Origin: Miscanthus floridulus
Lineage: Eukaryota; Streptophyta; Magnoliopsida; Poales; Poaceae
Direction of reading: 5' to 3'
Length of the DNA stretch: 64,000 bases
NCBI RefSeq assembly: GCF_019320115.1
Contig: NC_089588.1
Span: 117,090,123 to 117,154,122 of the forward strand
Under the pieces are notes generated by a model that was not told where the DNA came from, made no database searches, and saw nothing but the letters and a program-made list of their open reading frames with translations. The position numbers were made by a program, and so were the translations under genes. Shown piece by piece: positions 52,366 through 53,440 of the stretch; position 1 is the stretch's first letter; each line of letters starts with the position of its first letter.

Positions 52366-52675
52366 TCTTTGCCGAGTGCCTAAGACACTCGACAAAGGCC
52401 AAATTGTATTCGGCAAAGCCTTTGCCGAGTGCGGCCCTCGGCAAAGAACACACGGTAAAAAATTGATCGGAAGCCCTCTTTGCCGAGTGTCTTTTATCGG
52501 GCACTCGGCAAAGGCTTTGCCGAGAGCCCCGGGGGCACTCGGCAAAGAAAAGCGACCGTCACGGTGCCGGCCCCGTTGACGATCACTTTGTCAAGTGCCA
52601 ACCCTACAGGCACTCGGCAAAGATTTTTTATTATTATTTTTTAAAATTTCTTTGCCGAGTGCTGGATTCCTTAGC
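52366..52675. repeat. CACTA-5 left subterminal array
   Basis: Eight or so TTTGCCGAG / CTCGGCAAAG motifs in both orientations. The histone frame runs into its inner part. Confidence 0.88.
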
Positions 52676-53103
52676 CAATCCAAAGTCACCCTGCAGGCGC
52701 GCTCGCCACGGATGCGGCGGGCGAGCTGGATGTCCTTGGGCATGATGGTGACGCGCTTGGCGTGGATGGCGCAGAGGTTGGTGTCCTCGAAGAGCCCGAC
52801 GAGGTAGGCCTCCGCGGCCTCCTGCAGCGCAGCGACGGCGGAGGACTGGAACCGGAGGTCCGTCTTGAAGTCCTGCGCGATTTCGCGGAGCAGGCGCTGG
52901 AATGGGAGCTTGCGGATGAGCAGCTCCGTGCTCTTCTGGTACTTGCGGATCTCGCGCAGCGCGACGGTGCCCGGGCGGAAGCGGTGCGGCTTCTTCACGC
53001 CGCCGGTAGCCGGGGCCGACTTCCGCGCCGCCTTCGTCGCCAGCTGCTTCCTCGGTGCCTTGCCGCCGGTGGACTTGCGCGCCGTCTGCTTCATGCGGGC
53101 CAT
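52591..53103 (-). CDS. Histone H3.1-type gene captured by CACTA-5, with a 34-residue transposon-encoded tail
   Basis: The minus-strand frame from ATG at 53,103 encodes all 135 residues of mature H3. The N-terminal tail (AR-KQTARKSTGGKAPRK) keeps K4, K9, K14, K27 and K36. Ala31, Phe41, Ser87 and Ala90 mark it as the replication-type H3.1 of plants. The C-terminus is IQLARRIRGERA. Two differences from the canonical protein are seen: Thr3 is Met (ATG; an ACG codon would need one CpG-type transition), and Val71 is Leu. The codon after GERA is TGC (52,693-52,695) instead of a stop, so the frame runs on for CRVTLDWLRNPALGKEI and more, ending at 52,591. The last part is encoded by the TTTGCCGAG array. 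There are no introns, as expected for H3.1. An upstream in-frame extension to 53,439 exists, but the canonical ATG is the sensible start. Whether it is expressed is unknown. Confidence 0.92.
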   Translation of the reverse strand: MARMKQTARKSTGGKAPRKQLATKAARKSAPATGGVKKPHRFRPGTVALREIRKYQKSTELLIRKLPFQRLLREIAQDFKTDLRFQSSAVAALQEAAEAYLVGLFEDTNLCAIHAKRVTIMPKDIQLARRIRGERACRVTLDWLRNPALGKEILKNNNKKSLPSACRVGT

Positions 53104-53440
53104 CGCGGGGGACTGGGGAGAAGGGGTTTGCTCGGGTGTTTGAAACGGAGATGGGACTCTGGATTTGCTGTGGGGAATTGGAGCGAGACGAGGTGGTATC
53201 AATAGGAGCCGTGCGGAATTTGGCGCTCGGAGCGCGGGAAATTTTGGGGCCGAGTGGGGAATGAGGTGGGACGGGCGCCGTCGGATCGCGTGGGAATGGA
53301 GGGCTCCGATTGATTTGTCAGGCCTCACGCGGATCGCGATCCGTGGGTGGTGAATGGTAGTGAATGGCAGATCACCATCTGGCAGCTCCGCATCGGACTG
53401 GTAGTTTTGCTGGTTGTTCACGGCTGCATGCGGCCGCACA
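53104..53440 (-). promoter_or_regulatory. Captured histone H3 promoter
   Basis: Upstream of the H3 ATG is CGCGGATC at 53,328-53,335, the octamer known from plant histone promoters, here within a CGCGGATCGCGATCCG palindromic context. A related CGGATCGCGTGG lies near 53,282. A CT-rich leader, CCCCTTCTCCCCAGTCCCC, precedes the ATG. The promoter region therefore appears to have been captured with the gene. Confidence 0.65.

Follow-up and report, generated by a model that had tools for sequence, protein, structure and literature searches.

The 64,000-bp stretch of Miscanthus floridulus DNA analysed here (the window) harbours a Pack-CACTA element with an 800-bp copy of a host histone H3.1 gene, which is very probably a silent passenger decaying by mutation and not a working histone gene. 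As judged from sequence comparison, CACTA elements have taken up the H3.1 gene on at least two occasions, from two related host loci. A previous sequence-only reading had proposed both the capture of the gene by a CACTA transposon and a functional mobile H3 variant. The former is borne out by the closest host gene, the sister copies and the empty site. The latter is disfavoured, since T3M is a private CpG C-to-T change, the copies as a set have a neutral N:S ratio, 9/9 copies have lost the TATA-like box and the sister copy C15 is disabled.

Structure of the element and its cargo

The ends of the element listed in Table 1 (CACTACTGGA / TCCGGTAGTG) are TIRs which open with CACTA (CACTACTGGA / CACTACCGGA), and TTTGCCGAGTG arrays are present at both of them, as in other Pack-CACTA elements. 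CACTA elements make a 3-bp target duplication, and CTT flanks the element on both sides. A search with the 199 bp left of the element, in which 5/5 candidates (the window among them) were scored, found this flank four more times in the genome (97, 90, 87 and 87% identity), and in all four the sequence runs uninterrupted through a single CTT. The H3.1 frame thus lies, as had been claimed, inside a 2.28-kb CACTA element with a CTT duplication, its exact length being 2,284 bp. Besides the H3 frame, the element has no ATG-started frame longer than 100 aa and no recognisable transposase frame; by this measure it is, like other Pack-CACTA elements, devoid of a transposase of its own. The 32-bp filler between the left array and the captured gene is unique to the window copy among the loci fetched.

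Table 1. Features of the H3.1-bearing CACTA element in the window.
Feature	Position	Strand	Remark
Left target-site copy, CTT	52346..52348	.	
Non-autonomous CACTA element (Pack-CACTA), 2,284 bp	52349..54632	.	TIR, CTT duplication, empty site
Left subterminal array, TTTGCCGAGTG/CACTCGGCAAA repeats	52368..52662	.	
34-codon tail and TGA, from filler and subterminal array	52591..52695	-	native TAG lost at breakpoint
32-bp filler, origin not matched, between array and captured gene	52663..52694	.	
Captured 800-bp host H3.1 segment (upstream region, 5' UTR, codons 1-136)	52695..53494	-	closest host locus C19
H3.1 codons, Met to Ala135	52696..53103	-	
V71L codon, GTC to CTC	52888..52890	-	transversion, private to window copy
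T3M codon, ACG to ATG	53092..53094	-	CpG transition, private to window copy
TTGATAC at TATA-like position, -99	53196..53202	-	TTTATA in three host genes
CGCGGATC octamer	53328..53335	-	also in C19 host gene
Three 148-bp tandem repeats, CACTA backbone	53689..54132	.	
Right subterminal array	54342..54613	.	
Right target-site copy, CTT	54633..54635	.	

One of the four recurrences of the left flank lies on the same chromosome, 72 kb off, and is without the element. Adjoining this flank, a short way left of the element, the minus strand carries a fragment of a bacterial/organelle-type small-subunit rRNA (52080-52175, Rfam RF00177), which may be mitochondrial DNA that entered the nucleus long ago.

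The host coding DNA of the element comes from an identifiable locus, the captured segment sharing 96% identity over 708 bp, and 91% over a further 91 bp, with the H3.1 gene at host locus C19. The region of interest had been given as ending at 53440; the captured segment in fact extends beyond it, to 53494. An ORF of 170 aa on the minus strand (52591-53103) holds all of H3.1 and matches the Pfam family Histone (E 5.7e-48). Met included, the window copy is identical to host H3.1 at 134 of 136 residues, the only differences being the two replacements claimed previously, T3M and V71L. Eleven element copies keep codon 3, and T3M is found in the window copy alone; T3 and V71 are present in all 19 translated host-like H3 loci, 17 of which match the canonical sequence. 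Both changes being private to the window copy and present in 0/19 host-like loci, they were rejected as family-wide variants. The histone-type promoter octamer CGCGGATC, a plant histone promoter motif, was located upstream of the frame, as noted previously.

The origin of the C-terminal tail is apparent from the alignment. At the stop codon the host sequence reads GCC TAG, and the homology of the window copy ceases after GCCT and is followed by the filler, which leads into the CACTA array. The host genes on C19 and C18 have the native TAG, as does the sister element C15, in which ~100 bp of the 3' UTR are retained as well; both the native stop and the 3' UTR are missing from the window copy, the breakpoint falling inside the stop codon. 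Since the homology ends after the T of TAG and gives way to filler and then array, the tail results from a rearrangement and not from a point mutation, and a mutated stop codon was rejected. Hence, of the ‘TGC stop codon’ described in the sequence-only reading, it holds that codon 137 is TGC, but this triplet sits at a rearrangement breakpoint; that the 34 added residues derive in part from the subterminal array proved correct.

Protein searches were carried out with the tails as well as with the whole ORF. The last 40 residues of the window frame, in a search of limited sensitivity, gave a single match of 107 aa (E 0.03, identical over 20% of the stretch). The best 120 of 7986 matches to the whole ORF were mostly H3-bearing proteins of far greater length and told little. 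With the longest group-B tail as query (see below), no precomputed Pfam domain occurred among the 120 of 129 matches listed (E up to 10), and no annotated H3-CACTA fusion protein was found among the matches listed in the tail searches.

Several other CACTA-related sequences are present in the window. An 8,352-bp CACTA element (5828-14179) has the same 10-bp ends and array repeat as the H3 element, a CAC target duplication and remnants of a tnp2-type transposase (Transposase_21, DUF4216), and has the appearance of a broken full-size relative. Within it, a GC-rich frame (12478-13278) ends in array-derived residues and is perhaps another capture. Two CACTA transposase regions, closely similar by eye at the level of their translations, lie on either side of the H3 element (40192-42960 and 59516-62872); Transposase_21 was found in both, and DUF4216/4218 in the former. 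At 51110-51360, an array of TAGGGGCGG/CCGCCCCTA repeats ending in GTAGTAGTG probably marks where a CACTA element of a second kind ends. In addition, a piece of an NB-ARC/LRR disease-resistance-type gene is found on the minus strand at 17143-18429.

Sister copies and the number of captures

The search for the donor and for other copies, as suggested by the sequence-only reading, led to the identification of C19 as the closest host gene and of at least 14 H3-bearing CACTA copies in the same genome, i.e. the window copy (C9) and at least 13 others. The H3 search scored the best 40 of 138 candidates, the H3-array search the best 40 of 3186 and the upstream-region search 15 of 15; 14 is a lower bound, since pieces without the upstream region may be missed. 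The 13 related elements carry longer or shorter pieces of the H3 gene and comprise C15, eight copies referred to as group B (C5, C6, C8, C10, C13, C16 twice and C18) and four copies with shorter H3 pieces (C14, C2, C11 and C3). In group B the H3 frame breaks off after residue 119, where it is fused to the array, and K18R is present in all seven copies that have codon 18. C2 and C11/C3 are without the upstream region, and C14 keeps ~130 bp of it with no exact octamer. Both TIRs (with up to 2 mismatches) and identical 3-bp target duplications were found in 11 of the 14 copies; the target duplications of C15 and C16b are mismatched and C3 has a single recognisable end. The elements have moved after capture, as C9 and C15 have a common 5' junction of the captured segment at different genomic sites and group B is found at eight places. 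One group-B copy (L054:3215-3886, minus strand) has an open frame of 223 codons, in which H3 up to residue 119, with K18R and R49L, continues into ~100 residues read from the CACTA array.

The tree, the AU test and the N:S counts were based on 9 of the 14 element copies, leaving out C16b (partial upstream region) and the fragments C14, C2, C11 and C3. The tree separates host C19, C9 and C15 from hosts C18a and C18b and seven group-B copies with 100/100 support. The AU test rejects monophyly of the nine element copies for the whole segment (p-AU 2.6e-6), the upstream region (2.4e-5) and the CDS (0.0015), and with it a single old capture for these nine copies. This implies at least two captures of H3.1 by CACTA elements of a related kind, with two related host loci as sources, group B being placed with the related C18 genes and hence representing a separate capture. 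Both the 5' and the 3' junctions differ between the C9/C15 group and group B. Gene conversion between hosts and elements, instead of separate captures, would be a less simple explanation. The C18 and C19 host loci have flanking sequence in common and are probably homeologous.

Up to five captures are suggested by the differing pieces of C14, C2 and C11/C3, which could, however, partly be deletions of one older capture. The clade of C9 and C15 is supported at 94/97 for the whole segment and 68/75 for the CDS alone, and on account of the latter value the kinship of these two copies rests on their shared 5' junction. They differ at 20 of 714 compared sites (9/364 upstream, 11/350 in the CDS), which, at a substitution rate of 1.3e-8 per site per year, corresponds to a divergence of roughly one million years.

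Coding changes, promoter and alternative readings

Private coding changes were counted after exclusion of changes common to two or more sequences, gapped codons and codons after residue 119. The nine element copies show 22 nonsynonymous (one of them a stop) and 9 synonymous changes, in agreement with the neutral expectation (N fraction 0.665, weighted by the elements' own upstream mutation spectrum; p=0.71); the three host genes in the same alignment show 0 and 14, respectively (p=2e-7). The dN/dS-type comparison thus gives no sign, in the element set, of the purifying selection that would mark a working H3.1 gene. The window copy alone (N 2, S 2) has too few changes to decide. Disabling changes, which the sequence-only reading had named as one half of its refutation if found in sister copies, are present: C15 has a 10-bp frameshift and a stop at Y99, C5 and C8 have deletions and a stop, and in C3, whose H3 frame reaches only to about residue 111, codon 5 is a stop. 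Seven of the ten copies that have a start codon and reach residue 119 (C3 falls outside this count) keep the frame open, and that of the window copy is intact. As the copies taken as a set show no selection for the protein, the window copy is likely a silent, decaying passenger.

The control region has been altered too. At -99 to -114, TTTATA is present in 3/3 hosts and 0/9 elements; the site, assigned as TATA-like by sequence likeness and position, reads TTGATA in C9 and C15 and AAAATA in group B, and the window copy would accordingly be without a host-like core promoter. The CGCGGATC octamer, meanwhile, is exact in 9/9 element copies vs 1/3 hosts. Of the private changes, 27 of 70 in the elements and 3 of 26 in the hosts are CpG transitions (p=0.013). 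This excess is in the direction expected of methylated DNA, yet it is only suggestive, being weak in the upstream region taken separately (14/39 vs 2/12, p=0.30) and host coding changes being constrained.

The following course of events may be envisaged. The H3 elements would have been moved by a transposase supplied in trans by full-size relatives, of which the 8.35-kb element with identical ends, itself broken, is an example. Once captured, the copies would probably have been methylated and not transcribed, leaving coding changes free to accumulate. T3M would then be a deaminated methyl-CpG and V71L a chance change, and the 34-residue tail a by-product of a filler-bearing deletion in which the stop codon and the 3' UTR kept in C15 were lost.

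That the element encodes a working mobile H3.1 variant, transcribed from the captured upstream region, with an unphosphorylatable position 3 and the 34-residue tail, seems very unlikely. The intact frame, the octamer and the 134 of 136 canonical residues are what such a variant would have, and transposon-borne H3-like genes with matching ESTs have been described in the fungus Pyrenophora tritici-repentis (PMC3538342). Opposed to this are the neutral N:S across the copies, the absence of the TATA-like box from all nine of them, the loss of the native stop and 3' UTR, the disabled sister copy and the one protein obtained with the tail residues. If any copy were expressed, the plant would make altered H3 proteins from scattered sites, such as T3M H3 with a tail and K18R H3 whose fold ends in other residues. 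H3T3 is a Haspin site in plants (PMC3113928). The sequence-only reading had also considered that the tail could bar the protein from nucleosomes. In general this is doubtful: H3.1-GFP (pHTR3:HTR3-GFP; the construct name suggests a C-terminal tag) is used to follow H3.1 in Arabidopsis chromatin (PMC10529913), and a C-terminal extension need not bar deposition.

An equally improbable alternative is that the cargo persists on account of its DNA or RNA and not of its protein, the upstream region lending S-phase expression to the element or the copies giving rise to small RNAs directed at host H3 genes. The upstream region was taken in at least two independent captures, and the octamer persists in 9/9 such copies; however, C2 and C11/C3 are without this region, what C14 keeps of it has no exact octamer, and with so few mutations 8 bp may have stayed intact by chance. 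It is similarly unlikely that one kind of CACTA element repeatedly took H3.1 with its S-phase control region for the benefit of the transposon, be it by tying element chromatin or transcription to replication or by H3 variants and small RNAs loosening H3.1-supported silencing. That T3M and the lost stop codon are errors of assembly or base calling can practically be dismissed, since the stop was lost through the filler and the loss of the 3' UTR, not through a base change, and T3M sits among other private changes of the window copy.

Comparison with known systems

An intact mobile histone frame with a change at a famous site falls, once compared with the host gene and its sisters, in a drifting set. 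In its CACTA ends, its lack of a transposase, its host coding DNA and its occurrence in several copies, the element resembles the Pack-CACTA or Pack-TYPE elements of plants (PMC8903248 and the review PMC13317346). What sets it apart is its cargo, an almost complete histone gene together with the upstream region, which elements with related ends have captured on at least two occasions. The word ‘histone’ occurs in neither of these two texts, and no report of a plant CACTA element with histone H3 cargo was found among the open-licence papers listed in the literature searches.

Capture of H3 by transposons as such has already been published, in the case of fungal hAT elements (PMC6710886 and PMC3538342), so that the unusual H3.1 cargo of a Pack-CACTA and its repeated capture are the points of interest. 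In Pseudocercospora fijiensis (PMC6710886), the hAT-H3 copies were inactivated by RIP, the original remaining intact. As in those fungi, a DNA transposon has amplified H3 coding sequence; unlike there, the transposon is a CACTA element, the host is a plant and RIP-like heavy mutation is absent. Moreover, a transcript or retrocopy was taken by the fungal elements, as inferred by the authors, whereas here genomic upstream DNA came along. The repeated capture of H3.1 by CACTA elements thus parallels the fungal hAT-H3 amplifications and, involving two related loci, provides a clean natural case of gene acquisition by CACTA elements and of the decay of captured genes.
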